A stretch of 64,000 nt of DNA from Crambe crambe. Its lineage: Eukaryota; Porifera; Demospongiae; Poecilosclerida; Crambeidae. A model generated the notes under the pieces. It was not told where the DNA came from. It did no database searches and saw only the letters and a list, made by a program, of their open reading frames with translations. The DNA lies in the NCBI GenBank assembly GCA_963924555.1, contig OZ004581.1, forward strand, positions 496,001-560,000. The letters are read 5' to 3'. This document shows positions 14,600-64,000 of the stretch, piece by piece. The stretch's first letter is position 1. Each line of letters starts with the position of its first letter. The position numbers were made by a program, and so were the translations under genes.

Positions 14600-14934
14600 C
14601 CTTCAACCTTTAAATCAGTTATGACTTAACAATGTGGTGGGCATTAAATAGGTTTTTATAATAATAATGTCAACATAATCGTTTCTGTATTCGTTTTTAT
14701 ATAATTAATGTTGTATAAGTGGGTACCAGTGTCTACGGCATAGGAAGATTTGATTGGGGGAGGGCAACAATGATTTCTCTTGTATATACACAGTGTAAAT
14801 TTTTCAGGGGCTATCCCTATGAATGGTGATCCTTACCAACCCAGTGAATGCAAGGGCTGACGAAATGATTGTAAAAGATAAAAAATTAATTATAATAAAA
14901 ATAGCTATACACGCAATGATTGTCACTAGGTTGT

Positions 14935-16475: not shown

Positions 16476-16501
16476 AGTTATTAAGTGGGGTGTGGCCACA
16501 G

Positions 16502-16514
16502 ATACGCATGCGCA
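16502..16514. promoter_or_regulatory. NRF1-like palindrome upstream of gene A
   Basis: CGCATGCGCA lies about 28 bases upstream of the gene A start codon. It matches the core of the animal NRF1 consensus GCGCATGCGC. Similar motifs precede G, I and H, which supports a promoter role, but binding is inferred. Confidence 0.5.
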
Positions 16515-16665
16515 ATGGGCCCGGGTTTTGAAAATTATTCATAAAATCATAATGTTGTGCATAATACTTCAGATTATCCATCACTGTGGTCCATTCTAGA
16601 TGGGATATTTCTCTAGAGTATTAAAAGATGAAAATTCCAGTGAAATCATAAACTATTAGCCTGCA

Positions 16666-19992
<3,327 letters not shown>

Positions 19993-33889: not shown

Positions 33890-36800
33890 CTACTTATGAT
33901 CACAAAACATCTCTATGGTCCTCTCACCATCTTCTTGCTTGAAAATAGTACCACCACCTATGTAATTTATAATAGTCGGTGAAGCAAGCAAGAGTGAGTA
34001 GGCTCTGAAATAATCATATAGATCCTCCATGGATATATCAGGTTTGCACTGTCTTTGTACCACTACAGCGAGCCATGCATGCATGTGTGAAGTTGCTGCT
34101 TGGATACTGGGTACATGACATCCTGTGAACGAATTGCTGCACTTCATCATTCTATGTGTATATATCTAACCGGTTGTGTTGTTAAGGCAAAGTTACAAGC
34201 ATGTGTGGCTGGTTTTCAAATTTTGTGGTGCAAAGACAGTGCAATAAGCTGAGCATGCTCTGTAGCTGAAGGGGGGGGGGGGGGGGGGGGGGTTGATTAA
34301 ACCACTGATTATAGTGATTACACACAGATGACAATCATGACATGTCATTAACTATGCAGTATATGCAGTAGCTATATGACACTAACCTGGACAGAGAGGA
34401 TCTAAGCAAATATTTTGGTTTAGTAGTGATGTCCTCACAGGTTGAACAAAGCCATCTTCAACTACTTCCTTTACAAGCACTTTGTATTTATCACGATTGT
34501 TGTTAATTTTTAACATCAGAACTCGTGTTGCCTCTGTAAGAAGAGCTTCGAGGGAATATAAGTATCTTTTTACTTTGAGAAGCTCATAAACTTCATGTAG
34601 CCACCACCCTCCTCTCTTATTTTCATCAGTGCTTTGTCCATGGTCTATTGCCATAAAGCCTTTATTTGTTGCCTCACCAACAAAATAATTACCTCCTGTT
34701 GCAATCTTCACAAATGGTGATTCTTCTTCTGCTTTTTTATTTTCACCTTCTTCATATCTCGGTTGACTTATAGCAGGCTGAAGAGCAGTTCCACGACAAG
34801 CCTCGAAAAGAAAGATTTTTGGAATGCCTCCAAGATGTTTACCGTCTTTAGGGAATTCTTCAGGGTATAATTTCTTGATCAATTCCTCATTCTTCAACAC
34901 TTTTTCATCTGCCATCTTCAAATATTCATTCTTCTTATCATCAATACCTCCATGACCAGCTATTATGAAAATTATACAACGATACTTTGGAAATGTTTCA
35001 CGCTTAAGCTCCTTCACTTTCTTTATATAATCTTCCAGATTTCCTTTTGTAGCATTGTGTGACCAGTAGACATCGAAGTTTAAAGCGTTGAAAGCTTCTG
35101 CGAGATCTTCACCATCATGACGGGTTGCAGGAAGAGTTTCTTCTGTATTGGTCTCTGTATTGGGGTACCCATTTGTCAGGATGATAACAGCACCAATACG
35201 TTCTACCGGTTGTTTTCTATCCATGTCACCTAAAATTAAAATGTAGTTGGTATTGGTTGAAGTGAGTGATATTGTTGAGTCAGCAATTTCATTGTTATTG
35301 GTGGTAATACCAGGTATTGAAGTGGAATAGAGTATTAATAATGCTTGCTAAAGATCAATCTGTTCCAGTGACGTATGATAGTTTGTCTCCAGTTGAACTG
35401 CCAGCGTCAATTTTTATTATTTTGGTCATTTCCTTAAAAAAGCAGAATGCCATAGAGTTGCCAGACCCTTTCCTTCCCCCTGAACTTATATTCCATGCAG
35501 AAAAAAACATTTCTATGAAATGAAAAAAGATATAGGGATGACCATTGCTCAAAAAAGTAAGGAAGCAAGGTATAGAGATGAAGGATGGAAATGGGATCAA
35601 CCTTTGTTCTGTATAATCATCGAGCCAATCCCTAACATTACCTGAAGTAACTATATGTATAGGGATTGTTGGCTGGATATACAGAATAAACCCATTTTCA
35701 TCCTTCATCCCTATCCTTATTTTGAGCAGTGGCCATCCCTACATCTTTCATTCGACTGAGATCTAGCTAGCAGAGTAATATTAGCATGCGCATTATTGAA
35801 ATAAAAATGGCTTCCAATAATTAGGTCCAGAGTGTCTCCTTATTCTTCGACCATTCCGAGGATTGACGGGTACGAAAGATCGTAGCTGGTAGAATTCGGA
35901 ATGGCTTGAGTATATGGTTGTTTAAGAAGAATAAGAATCTAGCAACTTACCTGCTTGCCGTATTTCTGAAACAGTAAGCTCCCTGGTCCTGAAACTTGTT
36001 CTCCACATTATAGTGGGCTCTAGTAAGCAGGATAATCATTCACAGTAGTTTTTGTTAAGTCCAAGTGGGAGAACTGGAATTACACTAGTGTATATGTGGA
36101 GTCCGTGTCATCCCTACTGTATAGAGAGAGCGATACTGTTCTCTCTGACTATACTGATGTACAGATACTGGAAGATCTCTCTAGCTGCTAAATGATTTAA
36201 TGCATGCAAGTATGCATGAACTCTTGTATGAAGGTCTTGTGTATTTGTCTGGGTGCTTTCCCACACCTGCCTTGCTGTTTCTACTGCCACATTATAGATA
36301 GCTTACATAATACCTATCTAGTTATTATCTCTCATCCTTTCCTTAATTTATTAATAACCATGCATGCTCAGGCATTGAGCAGTGAGTAATCATTGTCTAC
36401 AATGTGCAATAATTTTGATCATCGAATACCTAATCATGGCTGTGCACTATTGCAGGAAATTTACATATCAAAACGGGGGGTGGGGGTGGGGGGTAAGAGA
36501 TTTTTGAGAGGTATTGTTGTTTGCAAGCCATCAAATCCAGCTCTTATTAATGAGCACATGACATATCATTAGTCAGAGCTAGATGCATGCTGAAATTTAG
36601 ACTGACTTACCAGGTTTGCTACTTCCATCAAACAACTTTTTCCCATCACTATCAACTGGCTGTTTTCCACCACCTTCAACCAGCCCCACTTCTGAAATAG
36701 TAGCATTATAACAAAAAGATTAGAATCTCTTGACACAACTTCTTAGGATGTTGCTATCAATTCATGTAGTATTAATATTATGTTTTTGATGGGTATGGTT

Positions 36801-44568: not shown

Positions 44569-45400
44569 AACCTTCAGAAATAGCCAAGAAGGTTCATACT
44601 CTTCATCGCTTCTGTCCATCTAAGCTGTAAAACTCTGCTCATATTTCTGGAGTGGTCTGCTTCGAATTTATCAATGTTAGCTTCCTTGAGCCGAGCTGAG
44701 TACTTCTTAGCTGACAGGTTCTTGAGGCAATGCAAGGCTACTTCCCTCAGGTTAATAAATTCATGAACTCATTGACTATCTACCTTATATTAATACATAT
44801 ATTCATGTGTCTGTCGAAGAACTTGACACTGCAGGCGCTATTATACGATAGTAGCTTGTAGATCCTTGTGCATATAGAGAGCCATGCTGCTGGAATGGGG
44901 ATCTCTTCAAAGTGATGATCGCTGTCAAAATATCTTTCATATCATTTCTATTATCATCTCCTTCGTACCAAATATTAATAGGCTCATCTTTAGGGAAGAA
45001 AAGAGTGCCATTCTTATACACATCCATTTCCTCAACTTTTAAAAAGTTCTTCTTCACCTCATCTAGGTGTGTAATTTGGATATTTCTGTATAGAAGATTC
45101 CTCTTTAGCATCTTTCCAAATTTTTGAATTCCTCAAGATCATTGTCTTCAGCTGGATCCTTGGTGGTAGCTATTTGTAGGAAGAGGTGACATCATCTTGT
45201 CTCTCTTGTTCTTTTTATGTACACGTGAAGGACCTGAAGAAGCTGACTGATTTTTTTTTGCAAGGATTGATCTGACTTCTTTTCTTGTTGACCATGGCTC
45301 TCTAGTAGTTGTTTGAGCAAGCTATCTTCTTTCATGAAGCCCTTCAGTCTGGACCACTCGGATTTTGCAATTGCTTGTCGACTCCTGTGCTAGGTGAAAT
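44569..45400 (-). pseudogene. ROCO/death-domain pseudogene
   Basis: In the minus direction, 45,390-45,230 resembles the linker after the P-loop of gene I (LKGFMKEDSLLKQLLE against LKGFVEEDSFLTHLLE). Next, 45,111-44,803 resembles its G4-to-COR region (THLDE, then YKNGTLFFP), and 44,755-44,569 is a decayed copy of the final death domain of gene A. Most of the GTPase domain is deleted, several frames are broken, and the adjacent transposon cuts off the 3' end. Confidence 0.7.
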
Positions 45401-45409
45401 CTTTAATTT

Positions 45410-46117
45410 ACATCCAGAGAACAAATATTCAAATATCTCCCACCAAGCATTTTATCGTAGTTAACTTTCCTGATTGAGCATGCTTTATAAACTTCTGTGT
45501 GTTGTGTATTACCTTGGGGCATATATATATATATATGGATCTGTGAATCCCCTCATTTTGCACATGCGTAGAAGATATTGCATAGGTACTATCTGCCCTG
45601 TGCCCTAATAGGGTCTTAGTTATGGAGGGTTTCTCCTTAGCTATAAGTTATAGGGCCTTACTAATAAATTTTTCATTGAGGGACCAAGCTGACACAGGAA
45701 GCAGCCAGAAGAAAATCTGACTGGAGGGCAACACATGATGTGATATACATGCTTGTGGGTGCATGATAAATGAGTCAACTCCTAGCCTCCTGTTGACAAG
45801 ATATCAATGATCAAAGGCATGCTCTATGATGGATAAAACCAAATAGCTAGTTACCCTATTATAGATAAAAATCAAACATCAGAATAAGTTACTATAGCTA
45901 TTCACTTACCAATGGGCTTTGTGGAGGCTTAGCTAGCTATATATCTATAGCTACATACAGCAAGCAATCATAATGATAAGGGAGTCAAAATATAGCCCAG
46001 GTTGTTCAGGGCTTTTCTTTTTATTTTTAGCTAGCTTATTCCCCTCTACTATATGTAATAGGTACTCAAAATGAAATTGAAAGGTCAAAAATGAAACCGT
46101 ATACAACACTAGTCGTG
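45410..46117. other. Intergenic DNA with leftover promoter-like and exon fragments
   Basis: A CACATGCGTAGAAGAT block near 45,562 resembles the region upstream of gene H (57,516). A shortened linker exon related to gene B exon 17095-17039 lies near 45,915. No intact gene is seen. Confidence 0.45.
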
Positions 46118-48282
46118 TTAGCTACTTTGTATAGTCAGTTTAAGAGCAATGTCACCAAAACCAGCACGATTAATGGCAGACTTGAGAGCTTCTAGTGTAG
46201 CAAAGTCTTTACTTCCTCTAGCATCACCAGGAGCCCAATGTGACCAAGACTCAAGCATGTTACTAAGATAGGAACGTGGGGCATTAGTCAGAAGTAAGGG
46301 TTTTGCTTGGATATTCTGAATTTCATATTTCTTGAATCCTAATGCCAAACCTATATCCTCCCAACTGGCAGAAGCAGGAATCAGCTGTTCATAGAGACGC
46401 CCATGATGATGTGATTCAATACGGGTAGATCCAACTGCAGAGAAAGGAGCTAGCTAATCTGTCCTTCTTTAGGCCACACAAACTAAATTTGCTATCTATC
46501 GTCACAAAATTTTCAAATTTCCATGAGAGAGGGAGGTCAATATTCAATATCAGCTTTATTCCACTTTGGATAACCAAGCCTACTTAAATCTTAAGGGCAA
46601 AAATACTGGACCAATTTTTTGGTTTTTGTCAGAAATGCCTCATCAAAATTCAACATTTTGCTGACAAAATTGTATGAGGGAGGTGACAATAAACTGCAGT
46701 ATTTAGTTTGCTTGGCCTTGAATAAAGTGAAGTCAGAGTAGCTTTTTACCAAGCCATGCAAGTCATATGATAAAATAGTCTTAGCACACATTTTACCTGA
46801 CTGTTCACTTCTGCCAGAGGTTTGCCATTTGGTAAGCTTAGGCTCCTCATGCTATGTGTATAATAAAGCATGGTTAATAGTTAGGCTGAGCTATAAGTTA
46901 AGAGAAGTGCATATACCTTTCCTCCATCAGGCTTGGAAGGGGTTTGCTCTAAAGAATGAAATCACTTTATTATGATTATAAATAACTTATTGAGCTCCAA
47001 TAGCTATAGCTAGTGCATAGCATCAACAAGGACATCTCAAACTGATTAGCTATCCATCAGGATTTATTCAAAAGCTGTATGCTAAGAGTGTTACATATCT
47101 AGCTAATAGGGTACAGGAATTTACACAATCAATATACACATTTTACCTGACTGTTCACTTCTGCAGCCTTCTGTAAGCCGCTCCTCATGCTATGTATTGT
47201 GGTTAAGTAGTATATAAGCTATCATAAAGAGAAGTAATACCTTTTCTGCATGCTTGGAAGGGGTTTGCTCTAAAAAAAAAAGAAATTACTTTATTATTAT
47301 GATATCTCATTGAGCTGTTATTACTGTTTTCTTCCTGTAAATCCATAATAACATCCACTCCAACATCAGAAATTCCATACCCTTTTAATTTTTCTTCTGA
47401 AAGTTTCATGAAAAGTAGACCAGGAATCTTCTTTTCTAAATAGTATAGCTACATATTATTATACTGTACAAATTATTAGCTATAAAATGATCACTGGCTG
47501 CAATGTACATAGGGGAAATTTATCTTATTCACTTGTAAAAAAACCCAAAAGCCCACAAAAGAGCTAATGAAATTCACTCAGGCTATACCTCCCTATATTA
47601 ATATAGCTACTAACCTCCAATAATATCACAATCCTCTTGTGGCACATGTTTTTGGAACAACCAGCTTGCAAATTCAGCTGGACTGAAATCCTTAGAAAAT
47701 TCCCCCATTTCTAAAAAAATATGTGATGGCTATAATTGAATACCCAGAGCTATATAGCTACCTTTGTTTGGAGGTGGCACAGGGGAAGTAGCAAGCCCTG
47801 AAACACAAGTTAAAAGTTCAATGGTTAATGCATATAGTTATTCATTTTGCCATGATAAGCGGCCTTTCAGAACTATATACAGCTAGAATTCCAATTGCTG
47901 GATAACTACCTAGCTATGGCTATATCAAGCTACCTGATGGTGTGTTAATGCTTGCAGCTGGAGACACTGAGGTTCCATGATATTCTCTATCGAGAATGTC
48001 TACAATATCTCCATACACTCTTGGGTTCAGACGCATGTGGTTGACAAACAGGTGGTAATTGTCACGGTTAAGTGAGACTTTATCTCTGATTGCAGTCACC
48101 AGTTTCCCGACCTTGTCAGTAGCAGATAGCATTGACTTTGGCTCATTTATTTCGTCATAAAGCTCTTTCTTGATGATTCCTCGCTGATGAAGAAATAGTG
48201 CAATCTCTCTGTCAGACTTCAGAGCAATCTTCAGCTTCCCTTCACAGTTGACTATAGTGGAATACTCCTTGGACTCGGCCAT
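46118..48282 (-). CDS. Gene G: CARD-SAM-death domain adaptor-like protein
   Basis: Exons: 48282-47934, 47797-47762, 47710-47615, 47435-47325, 47269-47241, 47189-47147, 46948-46917, 46851-46797, 46434-46118. They total 1,068 bases, or 355 residues, in frame. Order: CARD-like domain (residues 1 to about 110; VGKLVTAIRDKVSLNRDNYH), SAM (about 130-198), linkers made of duplicated small exons (QTPSK then HEE...SEQSG, each twice), and a C-terminal death domain (LGFKKYEIQNIQAKPLLL; SWSHWAPGD). The death domain is the intact version of the disabled gene B exon. There is no catalytic motif, so an adaptor role is inferred. The gene lies 253 bp downstream of the gene I stop on the same strand. The CARD is the sister of that in gene E. 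Confidence 0.75.
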
Positions 48283-48306
48283 TTTAGGCCACGCCCGGCA
48301 AGGCGT

Positions 48307-48357: not shown

Positions 48358-51300
48358 TAGTAGGGTCTACCCCTTATCTCAATACTATAATGGTACATTT
48401 ATGCATGGCACATAATATCATTATAACAAAACTTTCATTACAAGTTATCAATTTAGACACATTTTTGATAAAAAATACAAACTTTCACTAATAACTATAT
48501 ATAGTTGCAACTTAGTAGTATTGCCATTGTGTGTGCTAGTAGTTGAAGAAGTGCACATGTTTCTGGAGCTGATTGGAGCATGTTGGAGTCTGCACGTACT
48601 CCTTCCCATCAGCAAAGCCTTCCTCCGTGTAGACGTAATCATTGGCCAGCGCTTGATTGATAAGCAGCTGAAAGTCGGTATGGAGACTTGTACATGTTGC
48701 TTTTTTGCACAGGACTTTGCAAACTTCGGTTATGAACCATGACCCCTTGTAGCGATCTCGGTACGACTTGTTCCCACCAACGGTGGCATAGCACATGTAG
48801 AAGTGTGTGCGTCCAGTCGTATGCGCACGAGGTACTACACTTGCTGCATCTGCATCTGCTTCTACTCGGAGGTCACCTATCCTACCACCTTGGCAAGCTT
48901 GGATGAAGAATATTTTTGGCTTGCCTAACAGCAGCTCACTGTCTCCAGTCATCTCTTCTATCAACCGTATCTCGACTGTATTGCTATCTGAACAAATAAT
49001 CTTTCCTTCCTTGCCATGGGAGAGTATGCAGCAGATAAACGAGTCATTTGCAACTCTAGTCTTGGCTTTCTTATTGCTCTCCAACAAAAGCTCATCGATA
49101 CGAGAGAACAACTCGATGGTTTCTTTCCTTTTGAGATTATGGTATATCTTGACACGATAGCCCAGAAAAAGCAAAGTTCTGACAAGATTATCTTCATCTC
49201 GATCGGTTCCGTGCCGTGTAGAAGGTGCATTTTTGTTTTCAAGTTTCTCGAATACCTTGTTATTGATGATCCACGCTACACCATGTTTACTGGATGTCAT
49301 AGGGTAGTATCCTTCCTTATACTTGTGTTGGTTGATGGGTTCTGGATCCATTTTGGTGAGTTCGTCATCATTGTCGTGGAGCTTGAGTGTTGGAACGAAG
49401 GAACCTCTGTCCCAAGCCTCGTAGTAATCCACTCCCTTGTCAACACTAGGCTCTCTACCACTCAGCCGCAATGGCCTACCCTTTTTACCTGGAGAAACAC
49501 AATATATAAACACAAAATATAAGACTTCAAAGAGAAAGAGTGTACTCCAGCTTGGTAAGCCCCAGAGTCAAATGCTCTATACGGTCTGAGCAGAAATGTA
49601 AACAAAAATAAGGGGGGAAATTACCACTACAACTGTTCTCAATGATATTCACTACTAACACATCAATGATTAATATTAAGTTTATGTAATAGGTGTTGGG
49701 ATAACCATTTTCTACTAGCTAATTGCCATACGTAATGTTTTCCCCTAAAAAATTGATGAAGAAGGGCTAAGGAAGTGTCACAGTGTGCACTATAATTATA
49801 CACGATGCACTTACTCAACTCATAATACTGATGGAGTATAACATAATAACTGTGTTAGAGTTCAGGGTTCAGAGTTCATGACCTTACAATTTATCAGTGA
49901 AGTAGCTCTATTATTGACCCCAGGCCCTTCTTTTAATTTGACTTTCATAATGGCCTGGGGACGAGGCTAGCTCTATCATACAGTACTCAATTGGTACCTG
50001 CTGTAGCTGAAGGACTTGCACAACCAGAGTTAGCTATTGGGTGATTAATAGATTTCATAATAGTTGTAACGATTACTTCAAGCCACTTTTTACGTACCTG
50101 CTTTTTTCTTTTCCTTCATTTCTTCCTGCAGGGTCATAATGGTGTCCAGTCCAATTGGGCCAATGTCATCAATTTTATATCTCTCTAATTTTTCCTCTGT
50201 CAGACTCATGAAGAGGCGACCAGAAATCCCTGAATCTGAGATGGGAAGCCGAAAAAGTTAAAGCTTGAAGTACACTCACTATAAACTGACCTCTGATGAT
50301 GTTGCAATCGTCTTTAGGCACATGTTTAGACTGCAGCCACAGAGCTAGTTCAGCTGCACTCAAGTTTTCTGAGAATTCTTTCACCTCTATAGTACATAAT
50401 AAAAGGGTTTGTAAACAACTTTTAAAATAAAAAGCTGTTTGTGAGGCTTTTATGCATTTATTATTAAACTCTTTCATTTCTGTAGAAAAGGGTTTATAAA
50501 GCAAAATTAATATGCTGTACCTAAATGGAAAGAAATTATGTTCGTGAGGGAATTTTTTGTGCTACTCAAGTAATGGCCATTATTATCTTTTGCCCAAAAA
50601 CCCCCTCAAAGATTTCCCTCTAAAAAAAATAATTTTCTTGCTATGATGGTATTGTAGTTCTTCTGTCTGCACGTACCAGGCTCATCTGGTGGTACTGCTG
50701 AAGCATCAGACTCAACCTGCTGTTTCAAAGGAATTCATGTCATACCAATTCAATTAGCAACCATTAACGGATTACCTGTGAAGTACTTAGAGAGGTTTCA
50801 ACATCAGCTGTGTGGAAAAAAAAATTGATGTGCATAATTATTATGAGCTGGCATAGAATTCCCAAATATAAGTGTGTGCTATTTTTAGAACTATTATCTG
50901 CCTGAGGGTTATTAGTACACAAGGTGGAGTCCCAGGGACTTTTCTAAGGTGGTGTGGTTGGTATTGATAGTAGTGTATTCCTTAAACAGAACTGGTAGTA
51001 ACCAACACCCAACTGAAAGCATTATTTTTAAGTACCTGGTATTGGCCTCAAGTCTTCTTGCAGTGTGATGATGGTATCCATCCCAACTGGTGTCAAATCA
51101 ATCTTGTATCTCCCTTTCAACTTTACCTCAGTTAAACTCATGAAGAGTTGACCAGAAATACCGGCACCTTTGTAAAAAGATGTCAAATCAAAAACAAATA
51201 TAAGCAACAGGGTAAGGCACCCCATTGTGGTCACAGGTGTGACTGTTAAGGAAATCATAGTTAGTAGCTATGAGTTATTTACATAGTTTGCAACCTTGAA

Positions 51301-51450
51301 AGTGCAAGCCAAGTATGTATAGACTCAAGTTGTTTGGCTTCTAAAATTTGGACACATGAGAGCAGATGGTGAATGATCAAGGGGCAAGGTGAGTGCAAAT
51401 AGACTTTAGTTGAGAATAGTAATGATAATTCCAGTCAGAATTAGATTACT
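48358..51450. repeat. Segmental duplication, copy 2
   Basis: This is the partner of 27,475-30,530. Here the duplicated block continues upstream into the missing SAM half (51,600-51,505) and the ROCO exon of gene I, which shows that copy 1 is the truncated one. Confidence 0.9.
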
Positions 51451-54400
51451 ATCGCTAGGAAGCAGAGCTTGAGAATAGCATCACTGTGCTATTATGATAT
51501 GTACCTTTGATCTTGTCACAATCACCCTTTGGGACATGTTTCAATAGCAGCCACTGTGCGAGCTCATCTGGGCTTAAATCCTTGGAGAATTCCTTCACCT
51601 CTGTATGTATGTATGTGACACATGAAGCAATGGCTTTTGGATAATCATGTTGAAAAAGGTCTTGCACTGACACCTACCGGATAGAATTTCCACAGTAGAG
51701 AAATCGATCTCAGATTCAGCCTGTTGTAATTATAATGAAAGAATATTAGTCTGTAGTATTAATCATGTCACTGGTCAGTCATCCACATCAGACTCATTTA
51801 CACCTTTATTCACACTCATTCATATATTTGAACCTTGACACTCATTAGCAGTAATCATACACCCTGGGTATAAAAGAGGTGTGCTTTGCTATCTCTCTGG
51901 TATATCTCTATGAAGGACAAGGAAAAAGGTGTCCTGATTAGAAAGGTGTCCCCATTTCAAGGGGGGGGATAGTGGGACACAAGTGTCTTCTATAGTTTAG
52001 GTTGAATTGTAGTAAAGTGTGTCCTGGTTTAAGGACCCCACATTCACAGCTACACAATTACCTGCGACAAAGATTTAGCTCTGACTTCAACCTCCTGAAA
52101 CCACACCCTCTGAGACTCTGTCAAATCAAGGATTCGCTGATTGACCTGACACTTCAAGAAATCCTCATCGCCTTTCCGCAGAGCAAGGTGTTCTTTCACT
52201 GCATGACCAGAGTCGTGTATGCACTCAAATCCGAACTTGTACTGCAGTGAGTTTGACTTGTAATCCATATGCGGAGCAAGGGTATCCAGAGACGACTCGA
52301 TCCTCTCACGTATGGTAGAACATATTTCTTTATTTGGGATACTGCAGCGAGGACCTCGTGAAAGTGCAATTGCAATGTACGAAGGACGTGAGATCAAAAC
52401 AACTTGGTTCGTCTTGTAGGAGAACTTGATCATGTTCTTACAGATTTTTTCATCTTCGGTCAATTCCCACTGGAAGGTAAAATCAGTGATCATGTGGGAA
52501 AATATGCCTACAGGCATGTAGCCACAGTCGTATTGCAACATCAAAGGAGCTGGATTGTTCTTGGAGGTTACGATGGAGTTCAATTCGGTCTTCAATTCTG
52601 CAGCTGTCGCACTCTTCAGGGCACAAGGCATGAAGTAGGTTTTCTTTCCAGTGGATTTGGAGGAGATAACTATCAAAATCTTGAGGTGTTCGAGAAGCTT
52701 CACTAACTGATCCAGTGGAAGTTCGTTGGACTCATCACTGCATGGCTGCATGGCACATCGGAGATCTTCATCAGAAAACATCCCTCTTTCTTTAAACTTC
52801 TCTATGATACCAGGACCGGTTCTGGTAGGGTCACTGAAAGTGTGCGCAATCAACTGTGTGATACCATCATAGATGACTTGCACATCACAGAAGATTTTGT
52901 CTTCGACACCTTTCACTCCAGGATAATAAAAGATCAGCCCCATGCAGTGATGCAAGAACCAAAGAGCTTCTTTCAACTCTGTGGGATCGATTCCAAGTTT
53001 GCCTGCTTGCTCTTTACAATCTTCCAGAAACATTATACGCCTTCTTGATGCACTGTTGATGTTCTTGCGCATGTAGAGACTCAATATCAGCCAGGCTGCT
53101 GGAATGGTGATCTCTTGGAAGTGATGGTTGATTATCTTTGCCAAGATATTCTTGATGTTCTTTTTCTCACTATCGAGACCTTTGAAGTTATCCACTGCTA
53201 AAATAGGCTCATTTCTTGCGGGAAATAGTAGAGTACCATCCTTATAAAGGCTCATATTCTCGACTCGTTCCTTCAAGAATTTCTGCTTCTCCAATAACTC
53301 CTTCTTGCTCTTCAACTCATCCAAGTGTGTTCCCACAAAGAGTGCTCTGGAACGAATTGGAAATTTCCTGCACATGCTCTCAGTGGAATCCTGTGAAGAA
53401 ACACTGCACGTATCTCTGATACTGGGATCACTGAAGCTGGCAATGCTTGCAAGGACTTGAAATAGACTTTCCTCGACAGTAATCATCGACTCTTCCTCTT
53501 CTTCTTCAAGTGTGTACTCACCATCGCTATCGATGGAAGCCAATTTGAAAGGCTTATCCAACGGGTCATTCAGTCGATGATAAAGGAGGTAGAGGGAAGG
53601 TCCCATGATTAGGGAAGAAAACATATCGTAGAACTCAGGCTTACCACCAGTGTCGGTATTGATCAAAAGAATGAGATGATCAAGATCTCTCAACAGACTC
53701 TTGATGTCGTTCACCTCTCTTTCCCTGGCATCTTGAGGGAGGGCTAACAATTCTTGAATTGTCTTCCTTTTTACAAGTGTGTGTGCTTTTTTATCTGGCG
53801 AAGAATCAGAGGCAAGTGGTTTCGCTGTGGGCTCTGATGATGATGATGAGGTAATATCTGCTGCATCTTTTTGAACAGCTTCCAATAGATGAGTGAGGAA
53901 GCTGTCTTCCTCCACAAAGCCCTTTAGTTTGAGCCACTGGAACGAATTCGGATCCTCAGGATCGACTGAGATTGCTGCCAAATCTGAGCACAAGCTCCGT
54001 GCAGTGATGACTTTTGCTTGCTCAGCAGCGTCTGGGCTGGATGCCGAAACTGATCTCTTGAGTTCCAGGAGATTCATAATGTCTCCCATCAGTCGTTTGA
54101 TCGTAGATGACTTTCCTGACCGAGGGAGGCCAACATGGACAAGCCTAGCCATCTTTATTTTCACAGCGATTTTTTCTTTGATGGCTTTGTAATAAACTTC
54201 CCTGTGTCGTGCATCATCTTGAGATACAGCACCTGCATAATCATGAGTTATGCTATTAGTATGTATGTCCTAGCCGCAGTTGTATGTAAACTCTATCTTG
54301 CACACTACTGCAACACAATAGAGAGTTTACTTATCAGCACAGGTACACACTTGTATGGCACTGCTCAATGCAGACTTATACATGCTCACCACATAAAAGA

Positions 54401-55009
54401 CACATCAAAGTCAGTGTAACCTCATGAGTTTGTTAGCATTAGCTACTTCACTACACAATTTTATTCTTGAATCTGTGGACTTGTTATGGAGCATAAGCAC
54501 AGCTATGTACAGCCAATTCATAGGCGGCTGAAGGTGGGGGTTCAGGGGGCTCTAGTCCCCCAACTTTTGAAGTGCCTACATACTAACCTGCATGACAATT
54601 AAAGCACTTTTTGGTAAATTATTTTCGTAGATAGCTAGTATAGTATAATGGGATCACATTAGCTACATACTAAAATCACGAGCCCCCCCCTCCATCTTTG
54701 AAATAATTATATATGCACCAGAGTCCAGAATTCTCCCTACTTTATAGTAGTCTTGGTTTATTGGACTCTGGGCTTGCCTGCCCGCAAGAGAATAGTGGCT
54801 GCATGCCGTAGGAAAATGTTTTTCGGTGGTGGCGAATTTGAATCCCTAAAGAACCAGCAGTAATTCATTAGTAACTAGCTATTAAGACCAGCTCTTCTGG
54901 AGCTAGCTAGCTCCCTCTTCTTCCTCTATCTCTGCTTTAGTTTACCTGTCTTAGGATCCTGTAGATGCGGGATATTGCTTGCACCTTGAATGGCAACGGG
55001 CCAAGCCAT
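48536..55009 (-). CDS. Gene I: ROCO GTPase-SAM-SAM-caspase fusion
   Basis: Exons: 55009-54946, 54232-52062, 51720-51678, 51600-51505, 51167-51036, 50807-50776, 50719-50677, 50386-50291, 50235-50098, 50033-49998, 49488-48536. They total 3,804 bases, or 1,267 residues, in frame. Residues 45 to about 380 are a Ras-like/ROC GTPase: P-loop GLPRSGKS (56-63), switch DTGGKPEFYD (about 215-224) and a G4-like THLDE (about 323-327). A COR-like region follows (WLILSLYMRK; ALWFLHHCMGLIFYYP). Two SAM domains come next, then a caspase with RHGTDRDED, LSHG, FFIQACQGG and KGSWFI, so the catalytic residues are all present. Inferred: nucleotide-controlled, SAM-assisted clustering would bring caspase units together in one chain. 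The alternative is two genes, ROCO and SAM-caspase. Against that, the joining introns keep frame and no second promoter is evident. Confidence 0.72.
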
Positions 55010-55095: not shown

Positions 55096-55107
55096 TGCGC
55101 ATGCGTG
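55096..55107. promoter_or_regulatory. NRF1-like palindrome upstream of gene I
   Basis: TGCGCATGCGTG lies about 87 bases upstream of the proposed gene I ATG, supporting 55,009 as the true 5' end. Confidence 0.45.
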
Positions 55108-55251: not shown

Positions 55252-57393
55252 TCAAGTATTGAAGAAATGCACATGATGATGAAGCTGATTTGAGCAAGTG
55301 GGCTGCTCCACGAAGCCATTATACGTGTAAGCAGGATTATTGGCCACTCGATTAACTAGAGGCTGAAAGTCACTATGAAGACTCATACACGTTCCTTTTT
55401 CACAAAGCAGCTTACAAACTTCAATAACGAACCACGACCCTGTTATAATATCACGATATGCTCTATCACCAGCAACTGTTGCATAGCACAGGTAGAAATG
55501 AGCTCGTTTTGATGTCTGAACTTCACCATCTGCTTGTATTCGATTGATCAATCTGGTAGATTTTTTGCCTTGGCAAGCTTGAATGAAGAATATCTTTGGT
55601 TTCCACTCCAGCATCTTACTGTCTGCAGTCAATCGTTCTATAACTTCAATCTCAATAAACTCACTATCGGAAGAAATAATTTGGCCTTTATCGCCATGTG
55701 AGAGTATGCAGCAAATAAACGAATCATTTGCTACTTTATTCTGTGCTTTTGTGTTGCTCTCTGACAAGTGCTTGTCTATAGCAGTGAATAAGTCGAGGGT
55801 TTCTTGTTTCTTGAGATTACGAAATATCTTGATACGATAGCCCAAAAAACGCAATGTTTCAACAAGATTATCTTCATCACGATCAGTTCCATATCGTGTC
55901 TTATGCTTCTGAAATATCTTGTTGTTGATAATCCAAGCAACGCCATGTTTTTTTGACTCCATTGGATAGAACCCTAAATTGTTAGGGTCATTGTATGGGC
56001 CTGTGGGTTCTGGCTTCATTACAGTGAGTTTATCCTCTTCATCATGGAGTTTTAGCCTAGGGGTGAAGGATCCTCGATTAGTGGCCTCATATTCCGTCAG
56101 TTTTCCTCCATCGGACTCAAGACGATTGCCTTGGGGCCAGTCACTTTTGGCTAATTAAGAGAACAAGAATAATTTGAGAGTACTCTTTAGGCAACTGTTT
56201 ACTCTATAGATAAGTAAGTATTGGTCCTAAGCTATTGGGTATAACCATCCACTAACCTTGTGCTACTGAAGCAGAATCGGTCTCATGCTGTGCCTGTCAT
56301 GATCATCATTAACTTATAATAATAACATGTAGACTGCATACTATTTTCATATTATACCTGTGATGAATCTGGACTGGTTTTAGCTTCTGAGTTAGTACCA
56401 GTGGGAAGAATAACTTGTTCTAGGGTATTATATTAATAATAACCACAAGAATGTATCATGGTCAGGTGATCAATCATAGCTACCTCCTGGTGTTGGGTTC
56501 ATTTCTTTTTGGAGTTCTTTAATGGTATCGAATCCAACTGGTGAAATTTTTACCCCATAGTCTTCTAACCTTTCTTTTGTTAGGTTCATGAAGAGTCTGC
56601 CAGAAATACCTGCATCTGCAAAGATCAGTATAGATTTTAACCATTGCTCTATAATAAATAAGCCATAGCAACTGACCTCTAAGTTGCTCACAATCTTTTT
56701 TCGGCACACCTTTTGATTCCAGCCACTGAGCAAGCTCATCTGCACTCAAATCCTTGGAAAATTCTTTCACTTCTGAGGACCAGACATGAAACCATGCAAG
56801 TCACAGTAGAAGAACCACAACTTGAGATCATGAGGTAGCTACCTTTTAGAAGTGAAGATTCCCTTCCTAAATTTCCAGTTTGGGCCTCAGGTGAGTCTGA
56901 AATAAAATATGATTTCTCAAGCTAGCTATTATCTAAAATGCATAGCTAGCTAACCTTTTTTAGGAGAACCTCCCAGGAGCTCAACGATCACATTAGCACA
57001 ATCGTCATTGGATTCTCCATTCAGACATATCTTCAGAATTTTTTCATATGTTGCATTAAGACCATTTTTATCTTTCCATCTTCTCAGAGCGCTCCTCCTG
57101 TGATATATTATGTAGAACTTGAAAGCTCATTTATAGATGATAAAGCTAGCTAGCTAGCTAATATACCTCTGCAATATTGGCCTATTGGCATAAACAGTAA
57201 GAATATCATCTCTTTCAATCCTTGTAAGTCCCATTAAATCGGCTAAGTTTTCGTTCCAGTTGACAAAAGCATCAGCGATCTTATTAAGGTGTTTCTCCAC
57301 ACCACCGTGTTGAAAATCCAGCTTCCTTTGTAGCATGTACCGATTTTCTTTAGGGATTCGAGATATATATAACTGGTAGTTTTCCTCAGCCAT
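55252..57393 (-). CDS. Gene H: death domain-SAM-caspase
   Basis: Exons: 57393-57167, 57097-56955, 56896-56843, 56772-56677, 56615-56484, 56419-56358, 56293-56257, 56150-55252. They total 1,650 bases, or 549 residues, in frame. Order: death domain (residues 1-123; WNENLADLMGLTRIERDDIL), linker, SAM (about 142-217; DLSADELAQWLESK, ISGRLFMNLTKERL), linkers, caspase (about 255-549). The caspase shows RYGTDRDED, LSHG, FFIQACQGK and GSWFVIEVC, so the active site looks complete. A long N-terminal prodomain with protein-interaction modules is typical of initiator caspases. The intersubunit linker has no obvious cleavage Asp pair, so processing is uncertain. The first seven exons parallel pseudogene C, which ends in a death domain instead. 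Confidence 0.82.
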
Positions 57394-57515
57394 GACAACA
57401 AATCACTTGAAACCAGAGTGCTTTTTTTTTTTTTGGAGCAAGCTAGCTATCTAGCGCAGTACCTAATAACGAGGGCGTGACCGCCGATATATCGGGCGGA
57501 ACCCTGCCCTTATTC

Positions 57516-57527
57516 TGCGCATGCGTA
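57516..57527. promoter_or_regulatory. NRF1-like palindrome upstream of gene H
   Basis: TGCGCATGCGTA lies about 123 bases upstream of the gene H ATG. Confidence 0.45.
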
Positions 57528-57578
57528 GAAGATTATATAGACATGTACTAAGAAACATAACAGCGTTTGTTTTTCCCT

Positions 57579-59814
57579 CTATGCAGGTGCTGGATGTTTT
57601 ATAGCAATCTTTTCAAAGAGGGCATTATCCAGATCTTTCACTGCTTGGGCCAGTCTCCTCCAGCTGGGTCTTCCATGTTCTATATGATTATAATTCCTCT
57701 TCAGCCACTCTGTCAACGCCTGACTAAGGCATGTACCGACATCACGATTATTTCTCTCGATAGCTTCCAGTGATGACTCCTTCAGACGGAGTTTTGAAGA
57801 CAGTCTCCTCCATTGAGCTGTAAGAGACTCCACAGAGTCTAAGACATCACCATGATCCTCCTGATCTACATGACATAAAATAACTAACAATGCACAGTAG
57901 TTTATAATACCTTCTTCCACTCACCTAATAGAGTGTCATCAATGCCTTTTAGTTCGTCATCTTTATCTAAGTACAATCATAATTGCATTAATCTATAGTG
58001 TACATATAGCTACTTCAGAAAAACACCACACATAGTCATTAACAAATCATGCATAGAAGTAGTATCTTATCTTGGATCATAAAAACCACAATAAAGTAAA
58101 TACTCAGTCATGATAATTGATATCTACTTCTTATGCATGTAGAGTCATAAAAGCAAAATGATGTCAATGTGAATTTAGTTTCATAGCTAGCTACAGTAGC
58201 TATAAGTGAAGTGTTTGAGAAAGATCTCCAAAGCCAGCACGATCGACTGCAGACTTCAAAGCCTCTAAGGTTGCATATTCTTTGCTTCCCCTGTGATCGC
58301 CAGGGGCAAATTGATACCAGCGCTCAAGTACTGCCCAGAGGTAAGAGGATGGACCACCAATCAGTTTCATAGGATCGGCTGTGATATTGCTAATTTCATA
58401 CGGTTTGAAGCCCAAATATTGAGCTATGGTCCTCCATTCTGCAATGCACTGCTGCAGCTGCTCAACAAGAGTGCCAGTGTGATGGGAGTGAACGCGAGTC
58501 GTTCCACCTATGAGAGAGAATCTAGGCTCATTGCAACTGCAGTTATTAAGCAGCTAAGTTTGTTCCTCTATCTTCTCACTCCATTCAAAAAAATGTATAG
58601 CTATAGTATTAGTTCTGGCTGTTTCACATTTGATATCATCAGTTCAAAGATTGGTTTACATGCACAGTCACTATAGCAACTGCCATTTTACACAAATACG
58701 TACAATCATACCTGGTTTTTGATGAGGTTTTTGGGGAATGCCACCATCTGAACCACGAGCGGGAGCAGGGGAGTTCGTAACAGTTCCCTTGATCTGCATG
58801 TCCCAAGCACACATATATTCTTATCGAATACTGATTATAATTATGTCTTAGCTATAGTTACCTCCTCTTGGAGTGAAGTCAACATTCTTCGGTCAGCCCC
58901 TCTTTTGATTCCATAATCTTCTTTCCATTCATCTTCTGGTATTGTCGAAAATACACGACCTGCTATCTCTTCCTCTGAAATATGAAAACCAAATTCAAAC
59001 CCATGCATGCATCTCTACAGTACTAGCTACATGATAAACAACATACTCTCAATGATCTCACAGATTTCTTTCTTTACAAACTTGTTCCGCAGCCAAGCAG
59101 CAAGCTCTTTTGGACTAAAATTTTCAGAAAATTCAACAGCAATAGCTGCTGCAGAGTAATTAGAAATCATAGCCACTGTTGTCAATTTAGCTATAGCTTA
59201 GTTCTCACCATTACTTGAAGCAGCCTGACCAGGTCCGTCACTGCCTCTACCACCTGAAGCAGCAGCACCTACACATCAAAATCATTATGAAGTCGATCTA
59301 TTGAGTTATAGCTAGATAGATAGCATATTTACCTTCTGGGGGACCACTTGCAACAATTGTACAGATTTTTTGAGCAGTTGTGGAGTCTCCACCGGCCAGA
59401 CAAGCCTTCAAGAGGTTTTCATACGTTGCCTTCAGGTTCTTTTTTTCTTTCCAAACCTTTAAAACTCTCACTCTAGATAGTAATAGGATAATAAATGACT
59501 GACATTAGCCAACTTCTAAGTAGCTTGCTAATAATTGGGCAAGCTTGACAACTGCTTGCTAACATGGTAGATAACATATGTATCTCACAAACAAACCTTT
59601 GCAGAGGCAGAGCTCCAGCTGACTTAATGTCTGTGATTTCATGCGGAGCTAGTCCCAGCGAGGTTACCAGCTTTATCTCCCAATCAGTGATATACTTAGC
59701 TATTTCCCTCAAGTCGTCGTCATTGTCTCCATGATCGAAATCTAACTGTTTCTTCAGCCTCCCCCGTCGGTTAGCAGGAATCAGCGCATCAACGTAGTCT
59801 TGATAGCTGGTCAT
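57579..59814 (-). CDS. Gene J: death domain-SAM protein with two alternative death-domain ends
   Basis: Shared exons: 59814-59597, 59472-59333, 59268-59209, 59148-59047, 58974-58862, 58793-58712. Ending 1 adds 58507-58200 (1,023 bases, 340 residues). Ending 2 skips that exon and adds 57966-57925 and 57865-57579 (1,044 bases, 347 residues). Both stay in frame. Seen: N-terminal death domain (WEIKLVTSLGLAPHEITDIK; WKEKKNLKATYENLL), SAM (FSPKELAAWLRNKFV; EIAGRVFSTIPEDEW), then either the death domain FKPYEISNITADPMK or the classical one with QWRRLSSKLRLKESSLEAI and GRPSWRRLAQAVKDL. Alternative splicing is inferred from frame and layout only. The last two exons could instead be a separate gene. 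Inferred role: adaptor. It is divergent from gene K, 259 bp apart. Confidence 0.72.
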
Positions 59815-60073
59815 TGGTTGCTACTCAGTACTTATCTAGCTCGACAATCAACACAGTTCTTCGTAGTATACCTATTTACACAGTAATTAGAACAACTATT
59901 AATAAAGTTACCAAAAAAAATAGTAATTGGCGGGCCCGGGCCAGGCCCCAAGGGTTAGCCCCAAGGGTTAGCCCCAGGGATTTTCCTAGTCTATATGCAT
60001 GTACTATGCGCAATGTACATGTGACATGTATAATAAAATTAATTAATAATAGGTAGCTAGCTAGCTTGAAGCA
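59815..60073. promoter_or_regulatory. Compact divergent promoter region between genes J and K
   Basis: The start codons of J (minus) and K (plus) are 259 bp apart, with a TATGCGCAATG motif near 60,005 and a short CCCAAGGGTTAG direct repeat near 59,947-59,972. Shared regulation is plausible but inferred. Confidence 0.5.
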
Positions 60074-62676
60074 ATGGATACAGGAGGAGTGGATAAATCA
60101 TACTCAGAATATGTGAACCTCATCCCACTTCAGAACAGATTTAAGTTGGATAAGACTCTGGATTATGAGCACAATCGTGTTGAGAAGGACCTTACAGAGA
60201 TAGCAGGCTTCTTTGTGGACTGGGAGTCAAAGGCAAGCCACTTGGGGCTCACTAATGTGGACATCAGTGATATTAAAGAAACCTACAGAAGCAAACCTGA
60301 ACTCCAAAGGTGCTTGCTCGAGGGTGTGTGAAATTAATTTTTGGAAGGAGGTGGAGTAAAGCTTTGGTATAAGGTAGTAATTCTGAATGGTGGGGTAATT
60401 TAAATACCTGAAAACTATATTTAATATAGCTAGTCATAAAGCTTTAACTCGACTATCATTACCTGATATTTAAAATTTTAGAAAAGCAGCTTTGCAAAAG
60501 TGGAAGAACAGACTGAGTTTCCGTGCAACACATGGTCGCTTACTAAAGAGCTTTCTTGAAGGAGGAGCTACTGATGCAGCAGAGGCAGTGTGTCGAATTT
60601 TAGGAGCTAATATTGGTGTGTGTTACATTGTATTAGCATATTATTGAATTTAGCATTAGTGTTTGTGTGTGTCTGCATTGGCCTTAATGTTTATTATAGT
60701 GAGTTTCTGTTATTTAGATGGAGCAGAAGCTGAAGGTGCTACTGGTATTGGTCACAAAGGAGTTCCATCAGCCAATGGCCAAAGTATAGGTACCCAGGCC
60801 TGTGACTGCCTGTATAGCTAATTGTGATAACTCCATCCCTTAGCTATAGGATCTGTTAAGCTTCCAGATATCACAACTTACTACCTCCAACTCATAAAAT
60901 GGATCAACCCAAAAGGAGAGGAAGCAAAACTGAATATTTACGAAGAGATGTCACCAAAATGGAAGGAGGTTGCTGGTGTGATTGGTCTGAGGAATGCTGT
61001 TATTGGCACTATAGCTGCTCCAGGAGCAGGGCGTGGAATGATTGATTGCATGCGTGATGTCTTCGGGAAGTGGATGGAGAATTGTGATGCGCTTCCTAAT
61101 CACAAACGCTACCCACTAACTTGGGACGGTTTGTGCAGAATTCTAAAAGATTCTGACAGTGTTATGGTGATGAAACAACTAAGAGAAGCTCTAGATGCTG
61201 AACAAAGCACTTTAAGAGGCACCTTCCCTGAAAATATACCAGGTAAGTAGCTATGGCATAGTAAGTCCTTCCTCATTTGACCTATTACACATTGCTAGTT
61301 TCAAAGCAGATTGAAGCCTCAGGCATGGAGGTTTCGGCCCCAACTTCAGCGCAAGATGACCAATCAGATTCAGCTATTGCACCTGCTGGTCAGACTAGAG
61401 CACCTGGTAATAGTTAATAGTTAATTAGCACAACGAAGAGGTAGGGGGTAAAAATAAAAAAGTTGTTACTGCACATCCTATAGCTTTAATCATCCCCTAA
61501 ATGGGGTGTTGATTAGATTTGTAAGCATGTGGTGATTATTAACAGCTATCTAGACCATTTCCTCCTTTGGCCATGTAGTTATGGGATAAAATTCCTGTGG
61601 TTTTTAAAGAAAAGGCACTAGGTAGACCTTTACCAGGTAACCCTTTACCATATTCCCACCATAATAGTTTATCCGACCCTTTACCATATTACTTTCGGAA
61701 AAGGGTTGCCATGAGTGCTAATTTGGCGCTATGGCACCAAAGGATAATCAGGTGTGCCAACATTTGAAATTGTGGTACCAGCTGGAAAGTGTTGAGTTTG
61801 ATTAATCATGTGTCCAAACACCTGACTAGTACATTATATACGCTTTGATTATTTTGGTGCCAATACTAAATGGCCCAACAAAATTGAAATAGGATGAAAT
61901 TCCTATGGTTTTTTAAAAAGTACCATTCAGCACTACCAGGTTACCCTTTACCATATTTCCACCATAATAATATATGACCCTTTACCATATTATTTTCGGA
62001 ACAGGGTTGCCATGGGTGCTAATTTGGCGCTATGGCACTGAAGGATAATCAGGTGGTGCCAATTGTGGTGCCAGAGCCTCTGCCTGGAAAGTGCCGAGTT
62101 TGATTAATCACATGACAAAACACATTGTATGCTCATTTCAAAAGCTGGCAATACTTATCTTGGCACCACAAAGAGATCCCTGGCAAAATTGAATATCAGC
62201 ACCCCTGCCAGGCTACTCTAATAAGGTTGTGATAATGTTAAACTGCAGTGAGCAAATGGATGGCTTGTGATGAACTTGCAGACTGGCTAGAGAAAGAGGG
62301 GGGTGTGGCAAAAGAGGATACTAAGAAATTAAAAGGCAAGTGTTATGATTTGTATTCTCCCATGTCGACATGTCACAGTCTCATTATGATGATTACATCT
62401 ATAAATAACCTCGTCCCCAGGCTCTAAAATTTCTCTTTCCTGCCTCCACATAATTTTAGAACCGAGCCTGGGTACGAGGCTAATCTATAAAATCATGGAT
62501 GTTTAATAATTAATGTAGCCAATAATCTAGGTAATTTATTTGCCGCAGAAAAAGGAGTGACTGAACGCGTCTTCATGAAGCTGAAGGCCCCAGTGGCGGA
62601 TTACAACCTCTTGCCAGGAACTGAACTGATTTTAGAAGATCTGCAAGAAGATCTTAAAAAAAGAAGAGCTAGCTAA
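60074..62676 (+). CDS. Gene K: death domain-death domain-SAM protein
   Basis: Exons: 60074-60309, 60482-60615, 60718-60789, 60850-61242, 61299-61406, 62249-62335, 62549-62676. They total 1,158 bases, or 385 residues, in frame. Order: N-terminal death domain (residues 1-123; DLTEIAGFFVDWESKASHLG), a second death domain (about 148-270; WKEVAGVIGLRNAVIGTIAA), linker, and C-terminal SAM (about 315-385; ACDELADWLEKEGG, ERVFMKLKAPVADYNLL). It is the only plus-strand gene of the cluster. The second death domain is a close relative of the intact end of pseudogene C. The sixth intron begins AAAG|GCAAGT, a GC donor with an otherwise perfect consensus. There is no enzyme motif, so an adaptor role is inferred. 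Confidence 0.8.
61560..62170 (+). repeat. Two-unit tandem duplication, about 300 bp each, in gene K intron
   Basis: Blocks containing ACCCTTTACCATATT, AGGGTTGCCATG and GCTAATTTGGCGCTATGGCA recur about 300 bases apart. The copies have diverged by several substitutions. Confidence 0.75.
62409..62480. mobile_element. Small foldback/MITE in gene K intron
   Basis: CCTCGTCCCCAGGCTCTAAAATT and the inverted form near 62,452-62,480 (ending GCCTGGGTACGAGG) make a hairpin of about 72 bp. A fragment with GGCCTGGGTATGAGGC occurs near 44,013. Confidence 0.6.
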
Positions 62677-63071
62677 TCCACTAGCTATTAGTTATAATAA
62701 TTTTCACAATGTCTATTGAAGTTGATCCTTTGATCTTTCATTATTGCTTCCTCTTATGATTGGTAACAGCAAAAACCATCTCATAGAGTGGGTGCATGAT
62801 CAGCTCTCTGCTGGTCATTAATAGAAAATTATGGTCAAGAATTGCTTAGTAGTGCTTACAATGAATTATCCAGGGATCAAGTTAATGCAAATAGATATAA
62901 CATTGGCATCAATTGAGTATCATGATCATGGATCAGCATATTGATTTTAGTGTCACAATGTAACACTGCAAATGGAACACAAACGAAAGAAAAAATGGCA
63001 AGCAAACAAACAAAAATCTAGCTATTATAAATGCAATCATTATGTGTTGTAAACAACAACAGACAGAAATT
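62677..63071. other. Intergenic region between convergent genes K and L
   Basis: The region is AT-rich and holds the 3' ends of K (plus) and L (minus). I see no gene or clear repeat. Confidence 0.5.
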
Positions 63072-64000
63072 TCATGAATCTTTTAAGTACTTGACGGTAA
63101 TATTAATTTGCTGCACACCATCATGAGTAGCTGCTTTGCATAAGTATTCCACCACTTTCAAACCATCATCGTCCAAACTTACCAACCGGAACACAAGAGG
63201 TCTGGATAACTTGTTATTTGTATCACTATGCATGCGAATCAGTGCACAAGTCATTTTATTCTCTCTTTCTGTTTCGAATTCATCTCTGAGTTTTGAGAGA
63301 GATGTATGTTTCAAAGGCAGCTGAACAAGATGTATACTTTGGTGCCTTTTGTCGTCAAAGCTACTTGAAGGAATTTGACTCCTTACCTCACGAAGGAAAT
63401 CATATTGCATGATGTTAAAGAGAGCGTAGATGATTTTCAGATAAGTTGCTTTGAAGTGATTGTCATTTCTCCATTTAATGAGCATCTGGTGACACCTCTC
63501 TTCGTTGTAAAGATATCTCTTCTTTATCTCTACAATGTCTTTATCGGACATATCAAGATAGCGCCCAAGCATACGCCATTTCCTCTTGCAGTTCTCATTG
63601 GTGGCTATAAGCTGGAACAATTTACCTTCCTTCGAGAGAGGCACGTCTGGACAGGAATCTACACATCTCAAAACTGAATCAATGAAATCATCTTTACTGC
63701 CATGAGCCCCAGGCAGTTTTGAAGCTGCAGGTAATTTTGAAGTCTTTCCTTTCTTCTCTTTATTTTTACTTGGAGATTCAGAGCCCTTTTTCACCCTGGT
63801 ATCCGTACCTATCTTCTCCTGTTCAGCAGGACCCTGTACCTTCAAGCGACGAGCAAGTAAAGGCGATCTCTTTCTTCCCACGTCAACTCCAGATTTAGCT
63901 GTTGAAGTCAAAGGTGACTTCACTGGGTGTTTTAGTGGTCCTTCCTTGGTGGATGATAGTGCACTTCCAGTTTTCCTCACAGAAGGGGGAGATCGACGAA
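63072..64000 (-). CDS. Gene L: death-domain protein, 5' end outside window
   Basis: One open exon runs to the window edge without a defensible start. Its frame stays open upstream of the GTG at 63,980, so this is a partial gene with about 309 codons visible. The N-terminal visible part is basic and Ser/Lys-rich, probably disordered. A death domain follows, about residues 105-190 of the visible part (WRMLGRYLDMSDKDIVEIKK; HQMLIKWR). The last 100 residues, with a repeated hydrophobic pattern (LVFRLVSLDDDGLKVVEYL), match no family I know. Unlike its neighbours it has no SAM, CARD or caspase module in view, and it lacks the modular small exons. Confidence 0.75.
   Translation of the reverse strand, partial: RRSPPSVRKTGSALSSTKEGPLKHPVKSPLTSTAKSGVDVGRKRSPLLARRLKVQGPAEQEKIGTDTRVKKGSESPSKNKEKKGKTSKLPAASKLPGAHGSKDDFIDSVLRCVDSCPDVPLSKEGKLFQLIATNENCKRKWRMLGRYLDMSDKDIVEIKKRYLYNEERCHQMLIKWRNDNHFKATYLKIIYALFNIMQYDFLREVRSQIPSSSFDDKRHQSIHLVQLPLKHTSLSKLRDEFETERENKMTCALIRMHSDTNNKLSRPLVFRLVSLDDDGLKVVEYLCKAATHDGVQQINITVKYLKDS

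Follow-up and report, generated by a model that had tools for sequence, protein, structure and literature searches.

Known animal death platforms usually have the nucleotide switch and the caspase on separate proteins. Initiator caspases (caspase-8 and caspase-9) carry the caspase domain behind oligomerising prodomains. SARM1, with the architecture ARM-SAM-SAM-TIR, combines a regulatory N-terminus that restrains, a tandem SAM pair that assembles and a destructive C-terminal enzyme. DAPK1 is a ROCO protein with a death-fold partner, and the outputs of ROC-COR in DAPK1 and LRRK2 are debated. The IPR009003 peptidase of the brown-algal ROCO proteins described below is presumably trypsin-like.

In excerpts of the published accounts, ROC-COR is modelled as a nucleotide-dependent dimerisation device, a model called unproven by the same source (PMC4104024). 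Trichoplax ROCO proteins carry CARD, TIR or death domains (PMC4104024, PMC11378527), and brown algae possess ROCO proteins with a C-terminal peptidase (group 3, IPR009003; PMC11378527). Amphioxus has TNFR-caspase and LRR-caspase hybrids (PMC2575513), and bacterial caspases are fused to STAND NTPases and other domains (PMC8195603, PMC7159879). Large TRADD-N expansions occur in the sponge Amphimedon (PMC8195603). A figure of NLRs from Dysidea avara includes caspase and COR among the domains drawn (PMC12909245); on that account, sponge NLR-caspase or NLR-COR fusions may already be known.

Here we analysed a gene in a 64,000-nucleotide stretch of DNA (the window) from the sponge Crambe crambe. The gene, referred to as locus A, lies at window positions 55009 to 48536 on the minus strand, and its copies elsewhere in the genome are referred to as B, C, D and E. 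Like SARM1, locus A is predicted to have a regulatory N-terminus, a tandem SAM pair and a destructive C-terminal enzyme; it has a GTPase and a caspase where SARM1 has ARM and NADase, and would work like SARM1 without being SARM1. SARM1 is probably the closest working model for a ROCO-SAM-SAM-caspase protein. Initiator caspases and locus A alike have a caspase behind oligomerising prodomains: these are DED or CARD in caspase-8 and caspase-9, and SAM with a built-in ROC-COR in locus A. In Trichoplax ROCO proteins and DAPK1, as in locus A, a ROC-COR core is joined to cell-death or immune signalling domains, but the partner described in the excerpts is an adaptor, whereas that of locus A is a protease effector. 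The brown-algal proteins resemble locus A in having a ROCO switch and a peptidase in one chain; unlike locus A, they have another peptidase class and an LRR-ROC-COR arrangement, and SAM is not mentioned in the excerpted source (PMC11378527). In the amphioxus hybrids, as in locus A, a sensor is joined directly to a caspase and adaptors are skipped, but neither a nucleotide switch nor SAM is named in the excerpted description (PMC2575513).

No published ROCO-caspase protein was found among the matches listed in the literature searched, which takes in few subscription journals; the original prediction likewise knew of none. ROC-COR, a SAM pair and a caspase in one protein appear to be a combination that is not described there. 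The same prediction had stated that switch and caspase usually lie on separate proteins, which is fair for known animal platforms but needs qualification, in that the excerpted sources include published amphioxus and bacterial caspase fusions.

Results

Eleven exons, joined at GT/AG sites, rebuilt the predicted chain exactly: a single open frame that spans 55009 to 48536 (minus strand) and codes for 1,267 residues before its stop. All features that follow are on the same strand. Exon 1 (54946..55009) carries the start codon, ends in phase 1 and has similar short counterparts in B, C and D; about 90 bases 5' of its ATG lies a promoter-like palindrome, ACGCATGCGCA (55096..55106). Exon 2 (52062..54232) holds the putative divergent ROC-COR GTPase, with G motifs, a weak COR-A match and a donor-like GT at its end. 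Exon 3 (51678..51720) is a short linker, entered in phase 0 and left in phase 1, and a homologue also lies 3' of ROCO in copy E. Frame, collinearity and a SAM profile assign the first half of SAM1 to exon 4 (51505..51600) and the second half to exon 5 (51036..51167). Exons 6 (50776..50807), 7 (50677..50719) and 10 (49998..50033) are linkers, placed by frame and by collinearity in the copies. SAM2 is assigned to exons 8 (50291..50386, first half) and 9 (50098..50235, second half) from frame, collinearity and a SAM_2 match, and the caspase domain and stop to exon 11 (48536..49488) from a Peptidase_C14 match and catalytic motifs. When the full-length protein was compared with Pfam at E 1 or better, only Peptidase_C14 and COR-A were matched; ARM and TIR were not.

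Exon 11 matched Peptidase_C14 with 123 bits (E 1.9e-35; cut-off 21.4). Among solved structures it matched caspase-6 (E 5e-28), caspase-7 (2e-25) and caspase-3 (4e-25). The catalytic His in SHG was located at 49018-49016 and the Cys in QACQG at 48895-48893 (minus strand), and SHG and QACxG were present in the caspases of A-D, aligned with caspase-6 and caspase-7. The caspase catalytic motifs claimed at the outset were recovered, and on this sequence evidence it is beyond doubt that exon 11 encodes a caspase domain. A V[EQ]AD site in the linker 3' of QACQG, kept in A-D, is a predicted self-cleavage site.

The P-loop GLPRSGKS of locus A was found at 54131-54108, DTGG at 53654-53643 and THLD at 53330-53319 (minus strand), in line with the P-loop and DTGG switch originally reported. 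In an alignment of 48 sequences (locus A exon 2 and 47 relatives), GxxxxGK[ST] was kept in 45 of the 46 rows that are ungapped at this motif; the counts were 48/48 for DxxG and 42/48 for THxD. Locus A exon 2 matched Pfam COR-A at 21.6 bits (E 2e-4), below the curated cut-off of 35.3 bits; with the same model, 47 of the 48 sequences reached an E of 0.01 or lower (best 1e-11), which bears out the COR-like region of the earlier account. Pfam Roc gave no match to locus A exon 2 and matched only 2/48 aligned sequences at E 0.01 or better. An hhalign comparison of the family profile with a canonical LRR-ROC-COR protein of the same genome, in which LRR, Roc and COR-A all score above their cut-offs, gave probability 97 and E 1e-10; the alignment ran from DxGG through COR-A, with the P-loop outside the aligned part. 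In a profile search of solved structures, the bacterial GTPase Der ranked ahead of LRRK2 ROC and every match was weak (best E 0.0013); locus A exon 2 alone matched nothing at E 1. Because the Roc model is only a proxy for the fold and the profile comparison reached probability 97, we call exon 2 a divergent, ROCO-like GTPase. Exon 2 is probably a divergent ROC-COR GTPase, for which GTP binding and hydrolysis are predicted.

In single-sequence Pfam scans, SAM2 of locus A matched SAM_2 at E 0.003, under the cut-off, and SAM1 matched no SAM model at E 1. A SAM profile was built from 11 SAM copies from the window and its copies. Its best solved structure was the tandem SAM of SARM1 (E 0.003), and 6/11 copies individually matched SAM_2 with an E of at most 1 (best 5.5e-6). 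The two SAM domains are weaker calls than the original prediction implies: they look SARM1-like by the 11-copy profile, but single sequences scored weakly and SAM1 went unmatched. We predict that exons 4-5 and 8-9 encode two SARM1-like SAM domains with weak single-sequence scores.

The ROCO exon gave 65 match rows in the genome, 5 of which were pieces of listed places, leaving 60 places; this count is a lower bound, since the best candidates alone were scored. The caspase exon gave 11 match rows and the Peptidase_C14 model 46. ROCO and caspase occurred together at four places (A-D), with ROCO upstream on the same strand. Copy B lies on C1 at 7.19 Mb, and copies C and D form a tandem pair on C14 at 5.14-5.15 Mb. 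A caspase lay at most 5 kb downstream at 4 of the 60 or more ROCO places, and the order ROCO-then-caspase on one strand, 2.8-3.5 kb apart, was seen at 4/46 Peptidase_C14 match rows. The chance expectation for such pairing at random places was 0.05; the four pairs are duplicates of one event. Identity to locus A was 93% (B), 88% (C) and 88% (D) for ROCO and 94%, 83% and 85% for the caspase, so that both ends of the unit gave the same grouping.

Exons 2-11 of copies B, C and D were collinear with those of locus A and bounded by splice sites, and their lengths differed only by multiples of three; all four full-chain frames (A-D) were open and exon phases were kept. The exon 8 acceptor must shift by 3 bases in copy B, and the exon-11 acceptor of copy C was shifted with the frame maintained. 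Copy D has lost the exon 3 donor and the following intron: 67 bases are read in frame from exon 3 into SAM1. Exon 1 was not aligned in the genomic alignment, but further upstream each of the four copies yielded a short first exon that ends in phase 1, that of copy D having eight codons only. Relative to the exon-1 ATG, palindromes of the CGCATGCG type started 96 bases upstream in A, 102 in B and 123 in D, and none was found upstream of the copy C start codon. We take the palindrome before exon 1 to resemble an NRF1 site.

dN/dS was computed over four pairs (AB, CD, AC and AD). Values were 0.21-0.24 for ROC-COR, 0.23-0.29 for the caspase, 0.28-0.33 for SAM1 and 0.17-0.40 for SAM2. Purifying selection was not seen in linker codons, including exon 3 (dN/dS 0.5-1.7; four pairs had no synonymous change and gave no value).

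Another data source held a 99% ROCO match (P0187) and a 98% caspase match (P0067) on contigs of equal size (691,590), and an 86% ROCO match (P0188) and an 83% caspase match (P0068) on a second such pair (2,741,742). These equal sizes suggest ROCO-caspase linkage in another assembly, the same size being no proof of the same contig. No further same-size ROCO/caspase pairs were seen by eye among 120 of 237 caspase rows. Both database ROCO searches scored the 8,000 candidates sharing most words, and the relatives were mostly ROCO-only pieces.

The big ROCO exon ended, by eye, at a donor-like GT in 30 family loci (L030 and L037 being one place); the 25 loci outside the subfamily share one position for this GT, and in A-E it comes 10-13 codons later. 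In copy E (C1:572184-574175; C1:574175-567949, L013 and L051), ROCO is followed by an exon-3 homologue that continues into an acidic, low-complexity open frame of 1,336 codons, and no SAM or caspase match was found within ~10 kb downstream. Since copy E has ROCO and exon 3 without SAM or caspase, exon 3 appears to belong to the ROCO side. Copy E seems to be a ROCO cassette joined to a different gene. Its ROCO has NTGG in place of DTGG.

The window contains a minus-strand series of SAM exons with Death domains. The upstream neighbour of locus A (~57920-55252, minus strand) has Death, SAM and caspase exons and no ROCO. For this neighbour (55252-57920), a second source has a near-identical caspase and a related one on same-sized contigs (P0069, P0070), hinting at copy-number variation. 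At 14900-22400, 46100-48300 and 58200-63998 the minus strand bears an array of Death domains, SAM exons and unassigned modules, which looks like an expanded immune or cell-death cluster. Three other features of the minus strand were recorded. A copy of exons 5-11 with ~96% DNA identity lies at 27620-30260, without ROCO or the first half of SAM1, and its active-site motif is QTCQG. A separate, more distant caspase-like exon lies at 34385-35347 (Peptidase_C14 5.8e-17). A degenerate-looking piece of ROCO exon (THLDEVKK...EMDVYKNGTLFFPKDEP) lies at 44806-45132 and resembles, by eye, P0006 and P0007. Further CGCATGCG-type palindromes were located in the cluster at 16507, 27442, 42350 and 57517; those at 16507 and 57517 are, by eye, near likely gene starts, and the palindrome may thus be a shared promoter element.

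Searches with the SAM halves (tblastn) found none in 27 other loci (L014-L038, L051, L054), with ROCO relatives covered to 1.5 kb past the match. Death-like open frames were seen by eye downstream of 18/24 other ROCO loci (1,500 bases each) and in none of the remaining 6/24; the frame of L021 was taken from a longer stretch, and that of L035, near-identical to that of L033, was left out of the scan. Pfam Death was matched by 8/17 scanned frames at E 0.01, and a profile of the 17 matched the death domains of THO complex subunit 1, FADD and RIPK1. Given Death-like frames at 18/24 loci versus a downstream caspase at 4/60 places, ROCO adjoining Death is the commoner state sampled. In our reading, locus A is a ROCO platform in which a SAM-SAM-caspase effector of its own has taken the place of the adaptor.

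Exons 2 and 3 form a cassette flanked by phase 1 at either end, exons 4 and 5 likewise start and end in phase 1, and this arrangement fits exon shuffling. A cassette of the ROC-COR exon and exon 3 may have been inserted into a SAM-caspase gene of the Death/SAM/caspase cluster. We consider it probable that locus A is one ROCO-SAM-SAM-caspase gene, in which a ROC-COR exon was spliced into a SAM-caspase gene, and that it was copied to at least four places. This explanation draws on the observed domains, motifs, frame, phases, co-inheritance and purifying selection.

Discussion

The sequence could alternatively comprise two adjoining genes, with ROCO ending a few codons past exon 2 and SAM-SAM-caspase starting between 52,062 and 51,720. 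Read-through past exon 2 meets a stop after 24 codons in B and after 2-3 in the other three copies, as this reading would have it, but the donor-like GT is kept although the read-through tails vary among copies, which counts against it. Two genes would also suit the 5'-truncated SAM-caspase copy without ROCO at ~27620-30260 and the upstream neighbour with its Death, SAM and caspase exons. The predicted intergenic gaps flanking the locus A gene measure 242 and 253 bases and fall within the length range of intron 2 (185-341 bases), so that gap size is compatible with either reading. The original prediction had named a poly(A) site and a promoter between 52,062 and 51,720 as signs of two genes. 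A lone AATAAA was found there (51810-51805), with two in intron 2 of B and none in C and D; the GCATGC palindrome was absent from intron 2 of all four copies, and CGCATGCG motifs instead precede ROCO in A, B and D. An independent SAM-caspase start was sought in intron 2: there was none in A, C and D, in which exons 3-4 are also without an in-frame ATG, and a possible one in B, where the codon directly following the exon 3-4 junction is ATG and another ATG lies in an open frame upstream of exon 4. Two further points count against separate genes: each of the four copies has an in-frame stop at most 3 codons ahead of exon 3, and D has lost the intron between exons 3 and 4 with the frame preserved. 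We consider two genes very improbable.

A single locus might also yield several products through alternative splicing, intron-3 retention or internal promoters, with ROCO-only and SAM-caspase-only proteins made alongside the full chain or in larger amounts than it. Such products could draw on intron 3 of A, which reads open up to exon 4, the ATG at the SAM1 start in B, the promoter-like CGCATGCG palindrome in intron 5 of D, and the 27.6 kb copy, which retains an open caspase exon without ROCO. However, these features are not common to the copies, reading through intron 3 runs into a stop within 16 codons in B and C, and the full-chain frame is kept in A-D, and we judge this reading unlikely. 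Four copies inherited as a unit, with their conserved phases, first exons and open frames, give good support to the single-chain gene model. A different objection grants the fused protein and denies it GTP control: it would be a pseudo-GTPase scaffold, with a caspase that may serve processing or immunity rather than killing. The absence of a Pfam Roc match to locus A exon 2 and the NTGG of the copy E relative point this way, but locus A has all three of P-loop, DTGG and THLD, and nearly all of the 48 aligned sequences keep these motifs. This version is doubtful, though it deserves some weight.

The part of the original prediction that concerns the single-chain gene model was supported by copies A-D and their phases and frames; for its death-effector part, we infer both GTP control and killing. 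In the single-chain protein, ROC-COR would act as a nucleotide-dependent dimer switch, and its change of state would let the tandem SAM domains oligomerise, as those of SARM1 do. SAM clustering would bring the caspase domains together to dimerise, and the dimerised caspases would cut their own inter-subunit linker at V[EQ]AD, 3' of QACQG. Active protease would then be released without a separate adaptor or procaspase. Such a mechanism would involve one mRNA over all exons, GTP binding, oligomerisation, autoprocessing and cell death. A single-chain GTP-switched caspase, in which ROC-COR senses or times, the tandem SAM forms a SARM1-like ring or filament, the caspase fires and the Death adaptor has been swapped for an effector, is a tentative proposal to which we give slightly less than an even chance.

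If the proposal is true, one protein would be sensor, platform and executioner. An animal death platform would be reduced to one polypeptide, in which a GTPase replaces the usual ATP-binding (STAND) switch. The locus makes it testable whether ROC-COR dimer switching alone fires a caspase, which is relevant to DAPK1 and LRRK2. Within the same genome, the contrast between ROCO-Death and ROCO-SAM-caspase would offer a natural before-and-after of adaptor bypass.
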